From contig CM038919.1 in the NCBI GenBank assembly GCA_021904315.1, forward strand, positions 14,873,666 to 14,937,665: DNA of 64,000 nt. Reading direction: 5' to 3'. Below, piece after piece: positions 1 to 51,295 of this stretch (position 1 is its first letter; each line of letters opens with the position of its first letter). This DNA comes from Sphagnum magellanicum (lineage: Eukaryota > Streptophyta > Sphagnopsida > Sphagnales > Sphagnaceae). A model generated the notes under the pieces. It was not told the DNA's origin, ran no database searches, and saw nothing but the letters and a program-made list of their open reading frames with translations. The position numbers were made by a program, and so were the translations under genes.

Positions 1-165
1 AACTGCCTCTGCACCGCTCTCTTTAACAAAATTTTCTGGCAGCTCAGAGTACTCGACCATCACCAGTGTTTTCCTAGTTTCAAATTCAACTCTTCACTCA
101 AAACTCGACTGTTCCAATTACATAGCAACCCGAATCCCGAATATCATACTAGCAGAGTAATTAGC
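1..165 (+). promoter_or_regulatory. 5' leader of peptide gene copy 1, cut by the window edge
   Basis: This stretch aligns with the leaders of copy 2 (about 7680-7830) and copy 3 (about 50690-50837), sharing the run CACCAGTGTTTTCCTAG and the Ser/Thr-codon-like CA-rich stretch before the ATG. In copy 2 a TATA box lies about 380 bp before the ATG, so the promoter of copy 1 should lie just outside this window. No intron boundary is obvious. Confidence 0.6.
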
Positions 166-663
166 ATGGCGCTGATACTAATTGTTGCTTTGATGCTCGT
201 GGCACTTTTGGACGGAACACAACTGCAACTCGCCACTGCGGTCAGATTACGTGTACCGGGAAACGTCGAGCGTCACTCAAGCCTTTCTAATTGCAAAAGA
301 GCAGAGTCAACAGACGAGTTGCAGCCAGTAGCTGTGGATGTCCAAGCTGCATCTACCATGATCATCATCACACACGGCCAACAAAGTGAAGGCGTTGCTC
401 GTAATCACGAAAATCTGGGGAGATTTGAAGTTGAAGGTGTTCCTTGCAATCACGAAAGCCTTCCGATCTTTGAAGTCGTGCCCCCTGCTGGTACCGTTGA
501 AAAAAGAGAACTCGGCGAGAACTCCTCGAATGCGCACCAACGTGGTCATCATAGAATTCTCGGTGAATCGGACAAAATACGTCGTCATTTTAGAATTCTC
601 GATGCAGAAGACAAAGGTAGCCCAGTACAAGGACCACCAGGCAGCAACCCTATTCATAACTAG
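166..663 (+). CDS. Small secreted protein, candidate peptide-hormone precursor (copy 1)
   Basis: 165 residues. Residues 1-25 are a hydrophobic signal peptide ending ATA, with likely cleavage before VRLR. Then comes a polar, variable region, a 15-residue direct repeat (residues 75-89 and 90-104, core NHExLxxFEV), a KR dibasic site near residue 113, and a second imperfect duplication of 12-13 residues (about 127-151, sharing RIL). The C-terminus, SPVQGPPGSNPIHN, has Pro, Gly, Asn and a terminal His-Asn placed as in CLE peptides (six of twelve consensus positions by my eye), and is also reminiscent of IDA and CEP peptides. The start is supported by a good context (AGCATGG) and by conservation in two other copies. 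Secretion is inferred; hormone function is a hypothesis. The frame is intact and copy 2 keeps the same frame, which argues for a real gene. The only alternative reading is a lineage-specific secreted protein of unknown role. Confidence 0.75.
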   Translation: MALILIVALMLVALLDGTQLQLATAVRLRVPGNVERHSSLSNCKRAESTDELQPVAVDVQAASTMIIITHGQQSEGVARNHENLGRFEVEGVPCNHESLPIFEVVPPAGTVEKRELGENSSNAHQRGHHRILGESDKIRRHFRILDAEDKGSPVQGPPGSNPIHN

Positions 664-1396
664 GTTTTTCTAGTTTCTACCACACGATCAGCAAGCTCTA
701 GTGAATGATCAAATCCGAAATGGGATTCTGTGACCCAACATTGCACCATCCATTGGAAACCCGTTACGACTAGTGGTTCATCAACAAAACAACTTAATTG
801 TACCATTGAAGGTTCCACTATCCTGTAAATTCCTAGAATTTCCACTTCACAATTTACCTCTAGGTAGCTGCCCTATGTATGAAATGGTCAGTATCAGCTG
901 TTACTAGGTAGGTAATGTAAATGGGTTACCTAATATAATAGTTAAAGGCTTGGTAGCAGCTTTTCTTTAATAGCAAAATTTTGCCAAAAAGTGAAATTTT
1001 AAATTTTAACTCGAAAATTAAGTGCTTTCTGAGGGTTTCAATCCCAAGAATTGAGGTGGATGGATGCCGGGAGTAAAAATCCCCATATTTCTATATTTGG
1101 TTTCAAGCCTGTAACGGAAAATTATAGAAGGATGATTAAAGTTTTGTATTTAGTATCTGGTTTATAGCCAGATTTGGCTAAATCTTTCTAGGGATGATCA
1201 CCACTTGGTGACAAACCAAAATTCCTAAAAACTCGCTCCAGTAAATAGATACATGTGGATGCTTTGTACATAGTTAACCATCATGGTTAACTATGTAGGT
1301 CCTGTCCCACATACCATCCATGATCCATCCTACATGGTGCGCTGGTGGCCAGCACCTGTGCTGTGCTGGTTCACTCTGGCCCAATCCTTGGACTCC
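664..1396. repeat. Duplicated 3' flank of peptide gene copy 1
   Basis: This region aligns with 8302-9040 downstream of copy 2 and, for its first 250 bp, with 51296-51560 downstream of copy 3. Shared landmarks are a block around CAGTGCACCATCC, the tract ending in TTACCTCTAGGT, and GAAGGATGATTAAAGTTTTG. It contains no plausible coding frame. It shows that the duplication unit was several kilobases long. Confidence 0.75.
1268..1296. repeat. Perfect 14-bp inverted repeat (palindrome)
   Basis: ACATAGTTAACCAT is followed after one base by its exact reverse complement. The matching place in copy 2's flank (about 8933-8957) still forms an inverted repeat, with changed bases on both arms (TAACTAAC and GTTAGTTA). 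Confidence 0.8.
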
Positions 1397-2367
1397 CAGA
1401 AAATTACAAAGTTTTGTGCATTAGTACAAACATGTTTTCATTCAAAAATTCTTCTATATGAAAAAGTGAAAAGAATTCATTAGTATATTTTTATAAAGTA
1501 ATCCATTGGCTCTTATTAACTTGTGTTATAGTAATGTTGTTAGTAATTGTTGAATAAATTTATGAATTTTTCAAAGTGTGGATTTCATCAAATTTTGTGT
1601 TGTCTTGAAAATTTATCATAATTTAAATCATACCAAAATATGCTAAAAATGTTAGGTTTAATTTTTTATAATATCATAAGCTACAACTTTGTTTTATATT
1701 TCATGTACATTACAACCCATTTACATGTGATAAAAGACTTTTGAAACTTTAAGATTTTGAGAAATATCTTGAAGTTTTACAAAATTCAAATTTTATAACT
1801 TTTCAATTTTGAGTGCTTTTTGAGTGAGATCAATTCATGGTTGGGGTGACAAAAAATGGAAAAAAAATTCCATGATTTTAGGCTACTTTCCCAAGGGAGG
1901 ACATTAGTAAAAAAAAGTAGAAAATATGTGAATAAAAAAATATATGGTGCATTATATTGATTGTTGGGTAAAAATTATAAGTTAATTAGTTAAAAAATAA
2001 GGTATATGTTATCAAATAATCAATTTAATTATAATACAATGTATGTAATAATCTGAAATAATATATCATAATTATTATAGGGTGGCTTAACATGTATATA
2101 TTAAAAAATTAGATAATAATAGGGTGATAAAAATTAAGTTGGACAATTATCTAATACCCACTTAAAAATGGTCGTTTTAACACATGTAGATCTCAAATTT
2201 TACACTAAGTCCCCCCCCCCCCAACCCCCAAATGTTACTTTTACAAATAATATTTACATTTAAACATATTTAAAACTACTTTGGGTTCATCCAATTCATC
2301 CTCAACAAAAGCATGTCTTGTAGCTTGTCCCATCCACACATGATACAATTCAAAATCAACAAAATTT
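1397..2367. other. AT-rich intergenic DNA, no gene seen
   Basis: Mostly A/T with short open frames that look random. A run of about 13 C residues sits at 2211-2222. I see no transposon ends or coding signal here. Confidence 0.6.
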
Positions 2368-2870
2368 CACTACTACAATTCATAGTTTCTTTTGTCGAAG
2401 CATTTAATAATAAAGGACCCCATTTGGACATGTTTCAAAAAGACCATCATATCAATTTGGACTTATTCAACATGATTGGTGGTCTTTTCAATTGGCAAAA
2501 TGTTGGACTATTTAACTAATCATTTTGATTGGTGGACAATGGACTATTTGATTGGTCACATTTTTACCTTAATTTTTTTAAATTGGATTGCTACCAAAAA
2601 TAATATTTTTGTGTAGATAGGTGGCAAGTTGTAAAAAAAAATAAGTAGGTGGGTGATGTGATAGCTCAACCTTGCCTACTTAATTTAATTTAACCTACTT
2701 GACCTCCTATCCTAACCCTTTAAACATGTATATAGGTTGCAAGTATTAAGAATTGAACCCTTCGTCTCCCCAATGATAATCCAAATCTTTATCAATGGAC
2801 TACATTTTTCAAAGTTGACAAGACTTGTAAAATTTTTAATTTCACTTTCTATTTCACATCATTCATTATG
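2368..2870 (-). mobile_element. CACTA-like terminus, family D, reverse orientation
   Basis: Begins CACTACTACAATTC, the CACTA-type start. The following 500 bp match the reverse complement of the right ends at 15039-15372 and 37630-38177: phrases about TGGACTATTTGA-like motifs, a GTAGGTGGG tract, then a block resembling CCCAATGATAATCC. Only one end is recognised; the partner end was not found. Non-autonomous and decayed. Confidence 0.55.
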
Positions 2871-4920
2871 TAAGTAAGTAAAAACATTAAGTAATTAATC
2901 TAAGTGGGTTGCACAATGGTTGGTAGGTAGAAGGGGTAAGTAAGTAAGTAGTTTGTAATCTATAGGAAATAGGTACGTAATTAGGGAGGTTATGGGCAAA
3001 CCTATCCTTGGGTGATACAATTAGGAACATCACACCTTATACCCATCAAATTTTAAAAATTCATAGAAAACACTTAAATAAATATTTTCACAATTGTTTT
3101 TAATGAATACATTTATTAAGTTTCATAGATTTTGAAATTTCAATAATATCAAGAATATTGTGTATTTTGATATTCCTAATCATTGCATTTAAGAAAAGTT
3201 TTACAAACATAACACTAATTCCTATCTTTGAACTTTTTAATCAAAAACACAAATTTGAAACATGATTTGAGAATTTTCTTGGTAATTTTTTCTAAGGTAG
3301 TTTTGAAGTCATTCTATTTGATTAAGTAATTAATTGGGTAAATATAATTTAGTTATGAATTTTCAAATTTATTTATTTTAATTCCTAAAAATGCCATTTT
3401 TACTAGGAATACAATTTTTTAACATTTTTCATTTTTTTCATTCCAAAATAAACTTTAATCCATATGTTAGTGCATGCAATGGATAAACACAAGGGAAAAA
3501 AATTATAGTTATGAAAACATTTTTAAAAAAGGGCCTAAAAAAATGATTTGACCACTTTTGGTTCCTTAACCATTCCTTGAGATAGTTCCTAATGGTACCA
3601 CCCAAGGATTGGTTCACCCTTGTAGGAAATAAAAAGCAGTTAGGTGGGAAAATTTAAGTAAGTATGAGGTATGAAGTAGGTAAATAATTAGGTAAGTAAA
3701 TATGTATAATGGTATGTGGGAAATAGGAGGTAAATAATTAGGTCGGTATGTAAATTGGTAGGTAGGTAAGTAGTAAGAAAGTTGGTATGTTGGTAGGCCT
3801 AGACCATTACCTAGCTTAGTTTGTAATTATAACCTAACTTAGTTTATAGTTATATGCCTTCATTATTACAAAATGTGGGTGCAATTCACTAATCCCCATT
3901 CATTAGGCCAATGAATTCACTACTTCCCCACTAGGTCCCATTCGTTATGACAAGTGAATTCATTCAACACCAAATGAAATCACTTGACATACAAAGACAC
4001 CTTTTGTTGGAATGCTTTTAGGTAACATAGGATGTCCCATTTGATTATAACAACATTGGGGTGCAAACAAGTTCAAACAAATTATTAACCATATCAAATC
4101 ATGTCAAATTTTTGCAATACTTGTTACTTTTGCCTATGTGTTACCATTTTAATAACACATAACTCACAAAACATTATGTTTAATGAATAATATGTATTAT
4201 GGATGCTGAAAAATGTAAATTGAATTAGGACATGTTCTAATTGAATTTTGGTTTGAATTTAAAACCTTCAAAGTTGAGCAAGTGTAGCTTCATTGAGCAT
4301 GTATTTTCACTGAAAACCCTTAATTTTCATGATATAAAAATTTTAATTTTGAAAATTTTTGTACTAATTGGGTACTTTAATTTATAAAACACACCTAACA
4401 AGCAATCAAAATATTAAGAAATTATAATTTCATTCTTTTCAAAATTCAAGGTCTATTCGATGATCATGAATTCTTTACCACATGTAATTTATGTGGTGCA
4501 ATGTACATAGTGTCGAAGAAAAAAATTCTTATTTTAATGTAAGCAATTCAAGAATGAAATCCTATATGTGCTTTTACATGAGTGGATTATTAATCAAACA
4601 CACTACAAAAGTTCATGCATTTTTTAAAATATTTTTCTATCTAGAATCATCTTTTAAAAGTTAATTAAATGATTATAATAAAGCCCAATTAAGCTAGTTG
4701 TGATCAATTTGCAACAAATCCCAATGCAAAATTATATGTGAGCACAACACACCAATCAATTGAGTACAACTAGATTCTATTTTGTGTCACCAACAAATAA
4801 CATAACAAAGTTCATTTGTCAAATTTTTGGATGCTGCAACTAATGTCATTTTCTTTTCATCCATCATCCATGACCCTAAATGGGTATCTCCCCATCCAAT
4901 AGAATCCAATGACCCAAGAA
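2871..4920. other. AT-rich DNA with GTAG/GTAAG tracts, no gene seen
   Basis: Stretches at 2925-2990 and 3655-3790 are degenerate tetranucleotide-like repeats of TAGGTAAG/GTAGGTAG. A possible CACTA-type start (CACTACAAAAGTTC) lies at 4601, without a recognised partner. No coding frame looks real. Confidence 0.5.
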
Positions 4921-5290
4921 GCTCAGTTTGAAAGCTTGTATGTTCCCTCTTGATGATTGTGGCGTGTTCGTTGCAGGGTCAAAGGTGACCGTGTGTCCTG
5001 AAGCTCATGTGTGTAACCTATTGCATTCTGCACATCATTGAGATGCTATGGAGTGTCATATGTTGCATCGTGTACATCTCTAAGATGCTTGGGAGTCAAC
5101 GTGTGTGCAGGAGCGAACGTGTGTGCATTCTCCAAACATTTTTTGCCTCACAATGAATGTTGCAAGGAACGACCATATGCTGTAGAGGTCAGTACTCAAA
5201 AGAGTGGCACACACCAAGAAATGAGCTTGTCCACTACAAGTCTTGTAAATATTGCTTGATTGATTCTGCGGCCGTTCAACCTGAGATCAT
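4921..5290. other. GC-richer island with internal repeat, unassigned
   Basis: Base composition is visibly more balanced than the surroundings, and a CGTGTGTGC motif recurs. The unit around GATGCTATGGAGTG (from about 5040) is repeated imperfectly about 50 bp later as GATGCTTGGGAGTC. A 73-residue Cys-rich plus-strand frame exists at 5038-5259, but it has no signal peptide and no relative here. A captured gene fragment or an old exon is possible; I cannot name it. Confidence 0.3.
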
Positions 5291-5600
5291 TATCGATCAC
5301 AGTAAGCATGTTTGCAAGTAGCAGCAAGGACCTCAGAGCCCAGAACCCACATACCATGGTGTTGTCTGGATGAACTAGGAGATGGAATCTTCCTTTTTTT
5401 TATTGTTGTTTTTTCTGGCCATAGTGAACCAGCACCCACCAGTGCACCATCCACTGGATGCCTGTTATTACTCAATTGTGGATGAACGTCAACTAGTTAA
5501 TATTTGGTTTCACCCTGGTAACCAATTCTGTAGGAAATAGACAGTTAGGAAAATAAGCAACTACTAGGTAAGTAGATGGTTTATACATAGGTAAGGGCTG
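5291..5600. repeat. Fragment resembling the 3' flank of the peptide genes
   Basis: The stretch around 5427-5480 (CCACCAGTGCACCATCCA, then a CTGGATGCCTGTTA-like block) resembles 740-780 and 8355-8400, which follow copies 1 and 2. A GTAAGTAG tract follows, as it does after copies 2 and 3. It may mark an older, mostly lost duplication. Confidence 0.45.
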
Positions 5601-5869
5601 TTTTTACTACCTACCTACTAACAACCCACTTGTGGGTTCTTAGTAAGTAGATAAGGAAAAAAAGCAACTGACCTAACCACGATGGTTAGGTAAGGAATTG
5701 GAACCCACCAGAAAATTGTTTCCTGATCACTTACCTTTCATCCTTTGTGGTGTGCTGGTGGGTACTGGTTCGTTGTGGCTGTCAAACTGCACCCAAAAAA
5801 TTTTAACAATTTGAAGGTAGGTACGAAAAAAATCTTAATACTGCAAGTCACCCCAGGTTGTCTACATTT

Positions 5870-7452
5870 TAGATTGTCAGATTATGCAGTATGTCAACTT
5901 TGGGATCTCCTCTTGTATACATGTTGGTCTGGGGCGGCAGATTATGCAATTTTCTGGACCACATTATATGACATAATCTTTCAATGATGATCATTGACCA
6001 TATGAACCAAAATGTGTCTGTTTAAAATGTTTTTTTTTTAAATCGTTGAATCTGTCACCCCAGACCTTAACCCCTAAATATCACTGTATTTCTGAATTCC
6101 CTAATGTTTAGGGGTTAATTTCATGGAATGGCCTTTCCCATTACATTGGGTGCACCCCCTGGCTTATTCAAACACGTCACTTGGTGCCTTACCCAACATA
6201 TTGGGCAGGTTGTCAACCATTCTACAAGCCTTGGGTGAACAAGCACTGACAATGGTATGCTGGTAAATACTCCAAATATTTTGTTGTGAGACAAAATTAG
6301 GGTGAAATTTGACATTCCTTAGATGAACTATGGCAGGGTTTCATCATCAATGTGGCCCTTTCCTTACTGAAGGTCAAGGTACCAGTGCAGAAGGTGCTGG
6401 TTCGTCCTGGCCATTCCATAGTGCATTATTCATTACCTTAGGTTTCACAATATGATGACCTTCCAAATTGGATGTTATAGGGGAAGCCCTGCCCTGCCAG
6501 AGTGAACCAGAACCCAAAGCTACTATATCAACCCTTAAATGTTAGGGTAGGTCCCATCTTAGTGCACTTTCCCTTGGGATCTCAGAATCCTTGACTATGG
6601 GGGCCAAACAATGCTAGATTTGAACTCAGAGACCCTGATTTAGTCTAAGCATGTGATATTTCTAATATTTGTAAATAATTAAATGGATTTTGGGATTTAC
6701 CATGGTACCAGCTTGGGTGCCTGTTCACCCAAGGCAGCCTGCTCCCACATGCCTCCTGGAGTTTGAGGTCCATAGCCTTGACCCCAACACCCTCTGGCTC
6801 CGCCCTCAAGGCTATGACTCTCAAAGTACGGTAGGCCAGTGGGAGCACACCTTCCCTTAAAGGGTTTTTTCTTCAAACGGCTGAAAGTCTGACATTGGTC
6901 ATGCCGAAGGGTCGTTGAATAGGTGAACTACTCTTGTGTGTGTGGAGGTGCTTTCAAATAGGAAAAAAAGACCTTGGATTGCTTTATTTTCCAGCCATAA
7001 GTTCTCTTGGTGCACTACTGAACAGAAATTCGTGGGAAGGACATCATTAGGCTTTCCCCTGTCATATGGTGGGCCTGTCCGCAGAGCTTTCAGAATCTCT
7101 TGTCTCCAAGGTCGCGGTGAAGCAGCCGGCTCTGACTAAATTGATAAAGCATCCGTTGATCAATTATCCAATGTCACATATTGCTTTCATGGCCAACAAC
7201 ATTTTCATGTTGACCAGTACCCAACAACTCACTTTTTCCCTTTGATATGTGGCCTCTTTGACAATCATACCGATTCCCTGCCCCACAATCTAAATGTAAA
7301 TTATTATGGTGGTGGAAGACTTCTTTGTGCGGAAGGAAATTGGAAGACTTGGGAGTCGGCATCGTCGGGAAGTCTGCAGGTCAAAACGTGAGGGCTCACA
7401 AACGCTAGTCTTTTGTGGTCGAGAAATGGAAAACGCGACAGACTCCAGATTC
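5870..7452. repeat. Duplicated 5' flank of peptide gene copy 2
   Basis: Aligns along its length with about 48840-50458 upstream of copy 3. Shared landmarks include a CAGATTATG...ACATAATCT inverted repeat with about 23 bases between arms, GATGATCATTGA-like sequence, a GTGGGAGCA block, and the final 150 bp before the TATA box, where identity is highest. Scattered short frames here are not conserved as proteins. High identity near the TATA box suggests a retained promoter. Confidence 0.7.
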
Positions 7453-7460
7453 CTATAAAA
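7453..7460 (+). promoter_or_regulatory. TATA box of peptide gene copy 2
   Basis: CTATAAAA sits in a conserved block shared with copy 3. It lies about 370 bp before the ATG, implying a leader of roughly 340 nt if transcription starts about 30 bp downstream and there is no leader intron. The corresponding site in copy 3 reads CTATGAAA. Confidence 0.65.
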
Positions 7461-7830
7461 TCCCGCTAGTTCACATTTAACTGCATAGTGCTCCATAGTC
7501 CTACACACCCAGATTCATTAAGTTGCAAAGATCGATGCATATCCATCACATTTCAATTTAGCTCGCAGTACGCAATTAGTGATAGGTCAAGGCTGCGTGA
7601 CAAATCATCTCACCCATTAGACACACCTTCGATTGGTTGAACCAGCTTAGCCCTAGAGCTACAACGGCTGTCGCTGAACCGCTGTGATCTTAACATTTTT
7701 TTTCTGTCAGCTCAGATCACTCGATCATCACCAGTGTTTTCCTAGTTGCAAATCCAGCTCTTCACTCACAACTCGATTGTTCCATAAGATAGCAACCTGA
7801 ATCCTCAATATCATACGAGCAATAAGTAGC

Positions 7831-8301
7831 ATGGCGCTGATAGCAATTGTTGCTTTGCTGATCGTGGCATTTTTGCACGGAACACAACTGCAGGTAGCCA
7901 CTGCGGTCAGATTACGTGGACAGGGAAGCATCGATCCTCACTCACGCCTTTCTAATTCCGAAAGAGCAGAGTCAACAGACGAGCTGCCAGTAGTGCAGGT
8001 TAATAATACTATGGATGTCCAAGCTGCACCTACCATCGCTACGATCATCACACACGGCCAACAAAGTGAAGGCGTTCCTCGTAATCACAAAAATCTTGGG
8101 AGATTTGAAGTTGAAGGTGTTCCTCGCAATCACGAAAGCCTTCCAATCTTTGAAGACGTGCCCCATGCTGGTACCGTTGAAAAAAGAGAACTCGGCGAGA
8201 TCCCCTCGAATGTAGACCAACGTAGTCAATTTAAAGTTACCTTGGACAAAGCAAGTCCTGTACCGGGAACACCAGACGGCAACAATGGCGGTCACAACTA
8301 G
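7831..8301 (+). CDS. Small secreted protein, candidate peptide-hormone precursor (copy 2)
   Basis: 156 residues, clearly paralogous to the protein at 166-663. It has the same signal peptide design (residues 1-25, ending ATA), the same AESTDEL region, the same 15-residue direct repeat (80-94 and 95-109), and the same KR site. The second duplication of copy 1 is absent, and a single unit leads to a C-terminus SPVPGTPDGNNGGHN. This keeps SPV, a Pro/Gly core and the terminal HN but differs in between; VPGTPD resembles the VPxGPD core of CLE peptides with extra residues before HN. Start context is AGCATGG. A TATA box lies upstream and the frame has no damage, so expression is plausible. Receptor, processing and role are unknown. 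Confidence 0.8.
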   Translation: MALIAIVALLIVAFLHGTQLQVATAVRLRGQGSIDPHSRLSNSERAESTDELPVVQVNNTMDVQAAPTIATIITHGQQSEGVPRNHKNLGRFEVEGVPRNHESLPIFEDVPHAGTVEKRELGEIPSNVDQRSQFKVTLDKASPVPGTPDGNNGGHN

Positions 8302-9040
8302 GAGTTTTTAGCACACAATCAACAAGCTCTAGTGTTGGGATTAGTGACGCGCCACTTACCCACCAGTGCACCATCCATTGGAAACCAGTTATGACTTATT
8401 TGTACGTGGTTAGTAACTCAGTTACCATTGAAGGTTCTATTATCATATAAACTCTCTATTCCCACTTCACACTACCTCTAGGTGCCTGCCTACGTAAGTT
8501 GGTAAGTCTTTTATGTGACTACTATGCAAGTCATGTAAGTGGTTATTATGTATGTAGGAAAGTAAGGTGCGAGGTGCTTATTGGGTAGGTAGGAGTCAAG
8601 TTTTTTTTATTGGCCAATTTTCTCCCCAAAGAAATAATAATTGAAGGTTTTTTATTGCCAAAAAGTGGGGGAAAATAAAAGAGTGAAAATTTCCAGGTTT
8701 TCATATTTGGCTTTCAGTGTGTAGCAGGAAAAACATAGAAGGATGATTAAAGTTTTGTGCTTCATATCTGGTTTATGCTCAAATTTAACTAAATATTTCT
8801 AAGGATGGATGATCATCACGCTTTTTACATCTTCCTGGATGATCAGTGTCACTCCCCATAGAAACAAAAATTCTTAGAAAAAATCACTAGTAGGTAGATA
8901 CATGTGGATGGTTAGTACGTAACTAACCACCATAGTTAGTTATGGGACAAAGATAGAATGAAAAAGTAGATCATGTCCACATACCAAGTATGATCCATCC
9001 TACGTGGTGCACTGGTGGGTCGCTGGTTAACTATGTCCCA
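8302..9040. repeat. Duplicated 3' flank of peptide gene copy 2
   Basis: Counterpart of 664-1396. Contains the CAGTGCACCATCC block, a GTAAGT/GTAGG tract at 8480-8600, the GAAGGATGATTAAAGTTTTG match and the altered palindrome near 8933-8957. No coding frame. Confidence 0.7.
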
Positions 9041-15990: not shown

Positions 15991-16891
15991 ACTCCTTAGA
16001 AGTTAGTTTAAGTGGGTGACAATTTAACATAAAATTCTAGGATTTGAAAAGTTTAAACTTTGAAAATATATTTATCAATTCCAAGTCATAAATGATGCAT
16101 AGGAGGCAAATTATTTATTTTCAACTACAAACGCAATTCAATATCTAGATATACACTTTACATTTTTCCTTCACCAATAACATATGTAGCTTCAAGTATA
16201 ATCACCTCATAAAACCGAGAATAAAAGGGCAGAAAGTCACCTCATAGTTTTCATTGTCTCCATAGTTGGAGCTCCCTACACTTGAGCTAATATATGAAGG
16301 CACTAAAGGAGTTGAGTGTTAGGAATTAAATCATGTTTTAAACTCTTGGACCTATTGAGTTTTACAACATTTTTTATGAGGGAATTTATTTTTGATGGAT
16401 AGATTGAATGGGTTTAAAGCATTACAAGTAGTATTGTTATGAATCCATGTTAAAAGATGGTTTGATGGTCCTACCAAACTCTATGTTCAAGGCATTATGG
16501 AATGTTGAAAGATGTTTTATGACTACCAAGATCAATGTTCACAATGCAGGTAGCTACTGTATCAAAAATGGGTTGACCTTGTGGATGTTACTTTTGTACC
16601 ATTCTTGGATTTATGTCTTCATTAATATTAGAGAATTCATTGAACTTTTTATTGGTAGGACATATTTAACCCATTAAGCTAAATAATTATAGGCCCCATG
16701 TATCAAAGCCTATTTGAAAACACTTGAAACTTGTTCAAGAATTGGTTGTTACATTATTATATGTAGCCAACAATAATTGAAATGATTAACATGTGTCTGC
16801 AACAACCTTTCTTCTAAAAGGCGAACCTCAAATCCATCTAAAATCTCATTTGCAATTTGCCTTCCTCCTAGCTACAAAACTTGGTTTATTT
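15991..16891. other. AT-rich DNA, no gene seen
   Basis: A 76-codon plus-strand frame at 16447-16677 has ordinary-looking residues but no relative, no signal and no splice context that I can see. I do not call it a gene. Confidence 0.45.
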
Positions 16892-17340
16892 AATGGAGTC
16901 TACACACGAAGTTTCTAATGTGTGGAACCTGCCACACAAAAGCCCAACTTGCCATAATAGTTCATTGCATCCCAATATCCATTATGTTGATGTAATGTTA
17001 TCAATGTAGTATTAAGACACCTGAAATCCATGCAATATTCACACTTTGGTAATGGAGTTTACACACCAAGTCTTTGGTGTGCAAAGCCTACCACATAAAA
17101 GCCTAATTTATCACAATAGTTCATTGCATCCCAATATCCGTTATATTGATGTAATGTTATCCATGCAATATGAAGACACTTGAAATCTATGCAATATTCA
17201 CTCTTTGGTAATGGAGTCTACACACCAAGTTTCTAGTGTGCAAAGCATGCCACACATAAGCCCAACTTGCCACATTGTTCATTGCATCCCAATATCCATT
17301 ATATTGATGTAATGTTATCCATGCAATAATTAAACATTTG
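16892..17340. repeat. Three tandem copies of a 159-bp repeat
   Basis: Copies start at 16892, 17051 and 17210 with AATGGAGTYTACACAC. Each contains TTCATTGCATCCCAATATCC and TTGATGTAATGTTATC. The spacing is exactly 159 bp twice, so this is a short satellite-like array. Confidence 0.9.
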
Positions 17341-17445
17341 AAATCCATGCAATACTAGGACATTTGAAATCCATGTAATACTTAAACAGTTAAAACCCAT
17401 GTAGCACTCAGACATTTGAAATCTATGCAATATCAAACATAGAAT
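17330..17445. repeat. Short decayed repeats of CATTTGAAATCCATG
   Basis: About four to five imperfect units of 30-35 bp (CATTTGAAATCCATGCAATA and variants) follow the 159-bp array. The motif is itself part of the 159-bp unit, so the array appears to have re-expanded a sub-piece. Confidence 0.7.
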
Positions 17446-29621: not shown

Positions 29622-30790
29622 GGTGTCGCCAAAGTTACAAAAAAATGCTTTTGTTACTAAAATAATGCAAAAGAAAATATTTGATGTTGGATATTGGTGG
29701 CCAACTATGTACAAAGATGTGCATGATTAATGCAGATCTTGTGATGCATGTCAAAGAACAGGAGGATTAGTAATTCAAAGTCTTGCAAAGTTGATCTCAA
29801 GTATTCCAAAGAAACCATTTATGAAATGGGGACTTGATTTTGTGGGGCTAATTAAGCCAGTAAGAAGATATAGAGGAAACAAATATATTTCTGTTACCGC
29901 AGATTATGTTACCAAGTGGGTGGCAACAAGAACATTGAAAATTAATATTGTAATAGTCACAACAAAATTTTTGTATGAGTGCATATTAACCAGGTTTGGA
30001 TGTTTTTCGATTATAGTCACAGATCAGGGAGTTCATTTCATTAATGATGCCATCAAGTATTTGACAAATCATTTTATGTCAAAGCATGTGAGTTCTACAA
30101 GCTATTATCCCCAAGGGAATGGGCAGATTAAGTCTATTAACAAGGTATTTGAAACACTGTTGACCAAGTTAGTTAGTGAAAATATAATAGATTGGGATGA
30201 ACATTTTTCCACAATGTTATTTTCATATAGAACTACATACAAAATAACAATAGGGTTACACCATATCAATTAGTGTATGGATTACATCCATTGATGCCCA
30301 CATAATACATAGTGCCAATTGTTGTGGAAATGAAAGAGACAATATTTAAGTGAAAGTTTTAACTAACAATATTACAGATTTAGAAAAGTTGCAAGAGGCT
30401 AAAATGCAAGTTGCAGAAACTACAAGTATTCAATAGTGGAATAGAACATTATGGAGTCAACAAAATAATCCAAAAAAATAGTTCAATTTTGGGGATTATG
30501 TTTTGTGGTTTCCAAAAGGAAATAAGTCACACCTAGGGAAGTTTACTAGGAAATGGTTTGGATCGTACAAAGTATATAGTATGTGTTACCAAATAACACT
30601 ATGTTATTGGTGACAACTGAGAAGTGTGAAAGTAATCCTATGCTGGTCAATGTGAATAGCTCAAACCCTACAAATACATGGATTCTAAAGTTCAAAAACA
30701 AGAACAATAAATGCCAATATATTGGGAACACACTTACATGTGGACTTCAAGCGCAGGTGGAAAATGAAGATTCTGAAATATAAAAACCAC
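29622..30790 (+). pseudogene. Ty3/gypsy integrase region, inactivated
   Basis: Starts in the zinc-binding domain (GYWWPTMYKDVHD, then a stop at the next codon, then CRSCDACQRTGG). The integrase core is open at 29791-30273, with WGLDFVG carrying the first Asp and VTDQGVHF the second. Exactly 35 residues later, where the catalytic Glu is expected after GNGQ, the codon is AAG (Lys). A frameshift near 30258 then breaks the frame; the family's next segment continues in another frame to about 30340. Further remnants with LWFPKGNKSHLGKFT and, at 30583, LPNNTMLLVTTE represent the C-terminal tail. Stops, frameshifts and the Glu-to-Lys change mean no active enzyme. Reverse transcriptase, protease and gag are absent upstream, so the element is 5'-truncated. 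Confidence 0.9.
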
Positions 30791-45359: not shown

Positions 45360-45595
45360 ACATGGCATAACCTAAGTGGTTAATGTTTAAATGCCATGTG
45401 GCCTAGCCTAGGTGGCCAATGTTTAAATGCCATTTGGCCAAGCATAAGTGGCCAATGTTTAAATGCCACGTGACCTAATTTGGGTGGCCAATGTCTAAAT
45501 GCCATGTGGCATAACTTGGGCGACCAATGTTTAAATGCCACATGGCCTAGCTTGGGTGGCCAATGTCTAAATGGCACATGGTATTTAACCAATCA
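45360..45595. repeat. 36-bp minisatellite, six units
   Basis: AATGTYTAAATG recurs at 45382, 45418, 45454, 45490, 45526 and 45562, exactly 36 bp apart, with GGCC/TTGGGTGGCC between. As 36 is divisible by 3, the minus strand stays open as a 12-residue protein repeat, but there is no sign it is expressed. Confidence 0.95.
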
Positions 45596-50837: not shown

Positions 50838-51295
50838 ATGGTGCTGATAGTAATTGTTGCTTTGCTGATCGTGGCATTTTTGGACGGAACACAACTGCAG
50901 GTCGCCACTGCGGTCAGATTACGTGAACCTGAAAGCGTCGATCCTCACTCACGCCTTTCTAATCCCAGGAGACCATAGTCAGCAGAGGAGTTGCCAGTAG
51001 CGCAGGTAAATAATACTATGGATGTCCAAGCACCAGCTACCATCATTATGGTTACTTTTGACTCACGAAGTGAAGGCGTTCCTCCTAATCATGAAAATCT
51101 TTGGAGCTTTGAGCTTGAACTTCTTCCTGGCAATTACGAAAACCTTCCGATCTTTGAAGACGCGCCCCCTGCCGGTACCGTTGGAGAAAGAAAATCGGCT
51201 TGAACTCTTTGAATGTACACCGACGTGGTCTCGGGACAAGGGATAGAACAAGTCCTGTACAGGAACCACCAAGCGGTAACGGTGGTGGTGATTAG
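50838..51295 (+). pseudogene. Broken third copy of the secreted peptide-precursor gene
   Basis: Begins MVLIVIVALLIVAFLDG, the same signal peptide as copies 1 and 2. An E codon (GAG) has become TAG at the NPRRP-stop point, about residue 47. The frame then continues with the VNNTMDVQ region and both 15-residue repeats (EGVPPNHENLWSFEL, then LPGNYENLPIFED). A one-base deletion near 51190 shifts the frame, and in the shifted frame the end reads TSPVQEPPSGNGGGD before TAG at 51293-51295. The terminal His-Asn of the other copies is lost (Asp). Two independent disabling changes plus a weakened TATA box indicate a pseudogene. A short product from an internal ATG is unlikely, since it would lack the signal peptide. 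Confidence 0.85.

Follow-up and report, generated by a model that had tools for sequence, protein, structure and literature searches.

Several plant peptide ligands (CLE, IDA, CEP1, PEP1, and PIP) were grouped in the SGP-rich proposal of Hou et al. (2014; PMC4154866), the cited sections of which describe a common layout of a leader, a variable region, and a conserved, Cys-poor C-terminus with Ser, Gly, Pro, and His. The cited portion of Vie et al. (PMC4526919) attributes to IDL and PIP precursors a conserved Arg behind the leader and the motifs SGPS and GxGH, and it reports IDA/IDL and PIP to be absent from Selaginella, Physcomitrella, and algae. Excerpts from two other sources give PIP as absent from nonvascular lineages (PMC13091385) and state that P. 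patens, S. fallax, and M. polymorpha have no typical IDA/IDL, with 11 CLE genes in S. fallax (PMC7552357). Here, we describe two genes and a pseudogene in a 64,000-nucleotide stretch of the moss Sphagnum magellanicum (contig C13, positions 14873666 to 14937665; here called the window) and their relatives elsewhere in the genome. We consider it probable, judging from sequence, that the two intact copies are part of an old multigene family whose products are secreted prepropeptides, and our best reading is that the family encodes precursors of a new SGP-rich type of secreted peptide.

The gene family and its conserved C-terminus

Copy 1 (window positions 166 to 663, forward strand) is an intact single-exon open reading frame (ORF) of 165 amino acids with no stop in the frame, and copy 2 (7831 to 8301, forward strand) is an intact single-exon ORF of 156 amino acids; the two proteins are 62.6% identical over their full length (tblastn E value of 8e-55). 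Predicted signal peptides of 25 amino acids, called from hydropathy and the (-3,-1) motif, occupy positions 166 to 240 and 7831 to 7905, respectively. Both proteins begin with a strongly hydrophobic segment (maximum 11-residue Kyte-Doolittle mean of about 3.5) and continue with ATA|VRLR, the predicted peptide of copy 1 ending in ATA ahead of VRLR. Each gene also contains an in-frame tandem repeat, with a 39-base unit at 540 to 615 in copy 1 and a 45-base unit (EGVPRNH...FEV) at 8067 to 8155 in copy 2. Family alignment delimits the candidate C-terminal peptides GSPVQGPPGSNPIHN (616 to 660) and SPVPGTPDGNNGGHN (8254 to 8298), and HN is the C-terminal end of each protein. Copy 3 (50838 to 51295, forward strand) is a pseudogene with a TAG at 50976 to 50978 and a frame change further on; its C-terminal motif is still present in a different frame. 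A preliminary description of the window had reported two intact paralogues with a shared leader and His-Asn ends and a broken third copy at 50838, and all of these observations hold.

Family loci were taken as the union of DNA and protein searches of the whole genome (438,994,042 bases, 31 contigs). No single search recovered every locus, and the counts are lower bounds: we found at least 15 loci on five contigs, 12 intact and 3 broken. Four lie on C13 (copies 1 to 3 and an inverted copy 4), three lie on C8 (a relative of copy 4 and one near copy each of copies 1 and 2), and the remaining eight, all intact, are on C18 (two), C11 (three), and C14 (three). Copy 4 (C13:14790970 to 14791611, minus strand) has an internal partial gene duplication and one in-frame TAA, and its relative on C8 has lost a large internal segment. 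In the protein search of the genome, the best distant match of copy 1 was on C18 (E value of 7e-10); C14_c gave an E value of 1.3 with copy 1 as the query but 4e-62 with C14_b. A maximum likelihood protein tree supported a clade of window and C8 copies (100/99), C18_a with the C11 members (96/98), C14_b with C14_c (100/99), and C18_b with C14_b and C14_c (91/91). A candidate at C10:15917957 (E value of 7.5), with one stop and no family-like frame at the locus, was excluded from the count.

The 12 intact proteins share one layout: a hydrophobic leader (maximum 11-residue mean of 2.3 to 3.6) is followed closely by an Arg, then by a variable middle, and finally by a C-terminus that extends to the stop codon. 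A simple A-x-A-like motif precedes V/I/M/A-R in 10 of the 12. The conserved tail spans approximately FHAQRADKG to the stop and carries a signature of its own, P-x-G-N-P/G-x-x-stop, in which two spacer residues separate GP from NP. The C11_b tail, KGSPVPSGPGGNPGGN, is typical; those of C18_a, C14_b, copy 1, and copy 2 are RGSAVPAPPGGNPGHD, KGSPVSGPPKGNPSGH, KGSPVQGPPGSNPIHN, and DKASPVPGTPDGNNGGHN, respectively. The dibasic KR site of the preliminary description fared less well. EKREL is common to copies 1 and 2, and EKR also occurs in their two C8 near copies; copy 4 has GKR, copy 3 has GERK, and the site is absent from the eight members on C11, C14, and C18. We rejected KR as a family-wide processing site because it is not conserved outside the window clade.

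Antimicrobial peptides are usually cationic or Cys-rich. The family proteins are of secreted type, small, multigene, and fast evolving, as precursors of defense (antimicrobial) peptides might be, but they have only 0 to 2 Cys downstream of the leader, and the last 15 residues carry a charge of -1 to +1. We therefore regard a defense role as very unlikely.

Between-clade identities, computed for 37 protein pairs (10 of the 12 proteins, with the C8 copies left out), were 49% for the C-terminus, 46% for the leader, 38% for the post-leader region, and 29% for the middle, and none of 84 middle windows reached the C-terminal value. The C-terminus is the best conserved region between clades, and the homologues with a conserved C-terminus that the preliminary description had called for are found in the eight intact members on C11, C14, and C18. 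For these eight members, the ratio of nonsynonymous to synonymous substitution rates (dN/dS, or omega) was 0.687 (p=3e-4), with regional values of 0.85 for the leader, 0.81 for the post-leader region, and 0.57 for the middle (p=1e-4); the p-values are approximate because kappa was fixed at three values for the null of the likelihood test. There is mild purifying selection on the protein outside the window clade, and the codon test does not single out the C-terminus.

The same pattern bears on the suggestion that the whole protein is the product, a secreted structural or cell wall protein in which the Pro/Gly-rich tail functions in wall attachment or glycosylation rather than in signaling. Conserved blocks beyond the tail (the leader and post-leader region) and the lowest omega falling in the middle would suit such a protein, as would the composition of the tail itself. 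However, the Pro-rich portion is limited to the last ~16 residues, a variable middle followed by a tail ending at the stop suits a prepropeptide, and no Pfam wall or arabinogalactan family was found. On balance, we consider a structural role unlikely.

All eight frames outside the window clade are open, compared with at most four of eight in 500 neutral simulations (run without indels), and all 12 are open when every member is included, compared with at most 5 of 12 in the same simulations. Similarity searches favor intact copies, yet three broken ones were also recovered. Chance ORFs within a repeated DNA element would likewise be multicopy, with an omega near 1 such as that of copies 1 and 2, but neutral simulations lose the frames, omega is below 1 outside the window clade, and protein conservation is centered on the C-terminus; this explanation is extremely unlikely.

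Upstream of the genes, a TATAWA string lies 295 to 404 bases before the ATG in all 12 intact members (chance of 0.15 per random window segment of the same size); in copy 2, this TATA box is at 7454 to 7460 (forward strand), 377 bases from the ATG. Among the broken copies, copy 3 has no TATAWA in 700 upstream bases, and copy 4 retains one. A CAGTCGA-like string close behind the TATA box was seen by eye in 5 of the 12 (C11_a, C11_b, C14_a, C14_b, and C14_c) and is possibly a shared core-promoter element.

Loose constraint in the window clade

Several results weigh against reading the family as peptide precursors under selection for their C-termini. The C-terminal omega of the eight members on C11, C14, and C18 was 0.69 (p=0.20, 25 codons), not below that of the middle. 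Window-clade omega was 1.32, not different from 1. Copies 1 and 2 gave a dN/dS of 0.83 to 0.96, or 1.08 with another alignment, which is the near-neutral outcome that the preliminary description had named as grounds for refutation; this pair alone would not have shown function. Their tails are the parts that are least alike (identity of 0.36, compared with 0.73 elsewhere), and 3 of the 15 loci are broken. In the only sets searched (Pfam, PDB sequences, and viral contigs), we found no relative outside this genome. With copies 1 and 2 as queries, Pfam returned no family at E values of 10 or less, PDB sequences gave no match, and 24 pattern matches in viral contigs included no relative. Pfam names at E values of 0.03 to 0.12 (one member each, with 11 members searched) were taken as chance. 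A literature search found no description of such a family, and six tail strings gave only one paper, an unrelated one.

Much of this would follow if the family was once functional and the C13 and C8 copies in or near the window are redundant, drifting, and without a function of their own. The clade omega near 1, the copy 1/copy 2 ratios, the three broken sister copies, and the diverged tails all point this way. Conversely, four of the seven window-clade copies retain a full frame and TATA box, and low divergence leaves little power. We judge drift in these copies to be close to an even chance, an estimate that overlaps with that for the prepropeptide family because both can hold together.

One segment of copy 1 has diverged sharply from its C8 near copy. 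Mismatches number 8/420 before this segment and then 13/60, 7/60, and 11/55, followed by a gap, in a stretch that extends beyond the stop codon; alignment codons 153 to 172 contain 11 nonsynonymous and 2 synonymous changes. This sharp tract, which includes an indel, covers window positions 595 to 1005, from the last coding bases into 3' sequence. Positive selection on the copy 1 C-terminus was considered and rejected: since the divergence runs past the stop, it indicates a divergent tract (perhaps from conversion or rearrangement) and cannot be taken as a sign of selection on the coding sequence. The search for a donor gave no clear candidate. The window-clade post-leader omega lay at its bound (50, p=0.02, 16 codons) and was not interpreted.

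Near copies of copies 1 and 2 lie with their flanks at C8:2492001 to 2510000, at 94 to 98% identity over stretches of approximately 620 to 1180 bases, and the correspondence with window positions 1 to 9000 appears to be a recent interchromosomal duplication. Copies 1 and 2 look like young, loosely constrained genes, the loosest members of the family. The window copies form a young tandem/segmental cluster that shows frames kept, frames lost, and tails changing.

Elsewhere in the window, a tRNA scan found none. An ORF at 29821 to 30273 has a weak integrase core match (Pfam rve, E value of 0.0012, below the curated cutoff) and appears to be a retroelement remnant. Tandem arrays occupy 16891 to 17354 (159-base unit, 2.9 copies) and 45363 to 45581 (36/72-base units).

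Comparison with CLE, IDA, PIP, and CEP

The family is CLE-like in having a leader, a variable middle, and a short C-terminal Pro/Gly/Asn motif. None of the 12 members contains the ungapped CLE motif R-x-V-P-x-G-P-N/D-P-L-H-N/H, and 3 to 7 of its 10 fixed positions match. The last 12 residues of copy 1 do match six fixed positions, as the preliminary description had counted by eye, or 7 of 10 when Ile is accepted in place of Leu (p=5e-5 against its own shuffles, a post hoc value). A true CLE identity for copy 1 was rejected as a statement about the family: its GSNPIHN end is peculiar to it, being found neither in the C8 near copy, which reads GGNGGGN, nor in the other members. A likeness to TDIF is seen in the C11 members, in which VPSGP-GG-NPGGN equals TDIF VPSGP-NPISN plus two inserted residues. 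By contrast, Physcomitrella CLEs read RMVPTGPNPLHN and similar in the cited part of PMC6089843.

Like IDA/IDL precursors, the family has an Arg behind the leader, an SGP-like core, and, in 3 of the 12 members, a final HN. It differs in having no PIPPSAPSKRHN-like motif, and the core PIPP-S-A/G-P-S-K/R-R-H-N is absent from all 12 tails, in which the resemblance is gapped only. PIP/PIPL precursors share with it the Arg behind the leader, a Cys-poor tail at the extreme C-terminus, and SGP, found in 5 of the 12 members (C14: SGPPKGNPSGH); they differ in SGPS and GxGH, neither of which occurs in any member. The CEP C-terminal SPG(I/V)GH is also absent from all 12 tails, and alignment to CEP1 gave a best p of 0.033 among 12.

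Gapped comparisons of the 12 tails with seven reference peptides amounted to 84 tests against shuffles, uncorrected. Low values were obtained for C11_b and TDIF (p~0.001), copy 1 and the IDA-like PVPP type (p=0.003), and C14_b and PIP1 (p=0.009); the IDA-like PVPPSGPSPCHN type aligned above shuffles in several members. Many comparisons were nonsignificant, e.g., TDIF with copy 2 (p=0.70) and with C18_b (p=0.94).

The SGP-rich layout is present in all 12 proteins, 7 of which have a His among the last five residues. The family differs from this group in its own tail signature and GP/NP spacer and in a His that is not universal. By core motifs, it appears to resemble several peptide families and to belong to none, in agreement with the earlier statement that there is no exact fit to CLE, IDA, CEP, or PIP. 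What stands of the new family first proposed is a set of small precursors of secreted type that share a conserved C-terminus; the CLE look of copy 1 and the KR site are not family traits.

Age, proposed processing, and significance

Synonymous divergence (dS, by NG86 with 60 bootstraps) is greatest for C14_a/C14_b (1.30) and C18_a/C18_b (1.06). Somewhat lower values were obtained for C18_b with C14_b and C14_c (0.72 to 0.82), copy 1 with C18_a and C14_a (0.70 to 0.80), and C18_a/C14_a (0.62). The younger pairs are C18_a/C11_b (0.28), copies 1 and 2 (0.18), and the C13/C8 pairs (0.03 to 0.04). The cited sections of PMC9946827, which used another Ks method, place Sphagnum duplication peaks at 0.406 and 0.643, dated to 102 to 122 and 189 to 247 Ma, and derive chromosomes 3, 13, 14, and 18 from one ancestral chromosome. 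If contig numbers equal chromosome numbers, the C13, C14, and C18 copies may come from that ancestral chromosome, and copies may later have moved to C11 and C8.

Secretion, cleavage, hydroxylation, a receptor, and a signaling or hormone role are proposed here by inference. The leader would direct the protein into the secretory pathway and be removed ahead of V/I-R, and the variable middle would serve as a pro-region. Proteases may then cut near the basic residue preceding G/A-S-P, about 15 residues from the end, and the released Pro/Gly/Asn-rich C-terminus, probably Pro-hydroxylated, would act extracellularly as a short peptide signal. By analogy with the SGP-rich peptides (CLE, IDA, PIP, CEP, and PEP), the receptor would most likely be a class XI leucine-rich repeat receptor kinase; the cited part of PMC6749341 describes receptors of this class in which the C-terminal Asn of a peptide is held.

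A more specific proposal is possible, which we rate as less likely than not. The family may be an SGP-rich moss peptide hormone family that predates the Sphagnum genome duplications, with a tail of the form VPSGP-xG-NP-GGN that in some members is like CLE/TDIF with a spacer of two residues and in others is like IDA or PIP. It might then represent the CLE/IDA/PIP ligand space in bryophyte form, with its own receptor, in a lineage reported to lack IDA, PIP, and CEP.

If this is true, mosses would possess, in addition to the canonical CLEs, a family of SGP-rich ligands, a finding that would bear on the origin of CLE, IDA, PIP, and CEP ligands. The family supplies candidate peptides of 14 to 16 residues, such as GSPVPSGPGGNPGGN and SPVPGTPDGNNGGHN as possible free forms (perhaps bearing hydroxyproline), for use with moss tissue and with bryophyte receptor kinases that have no known ligands.

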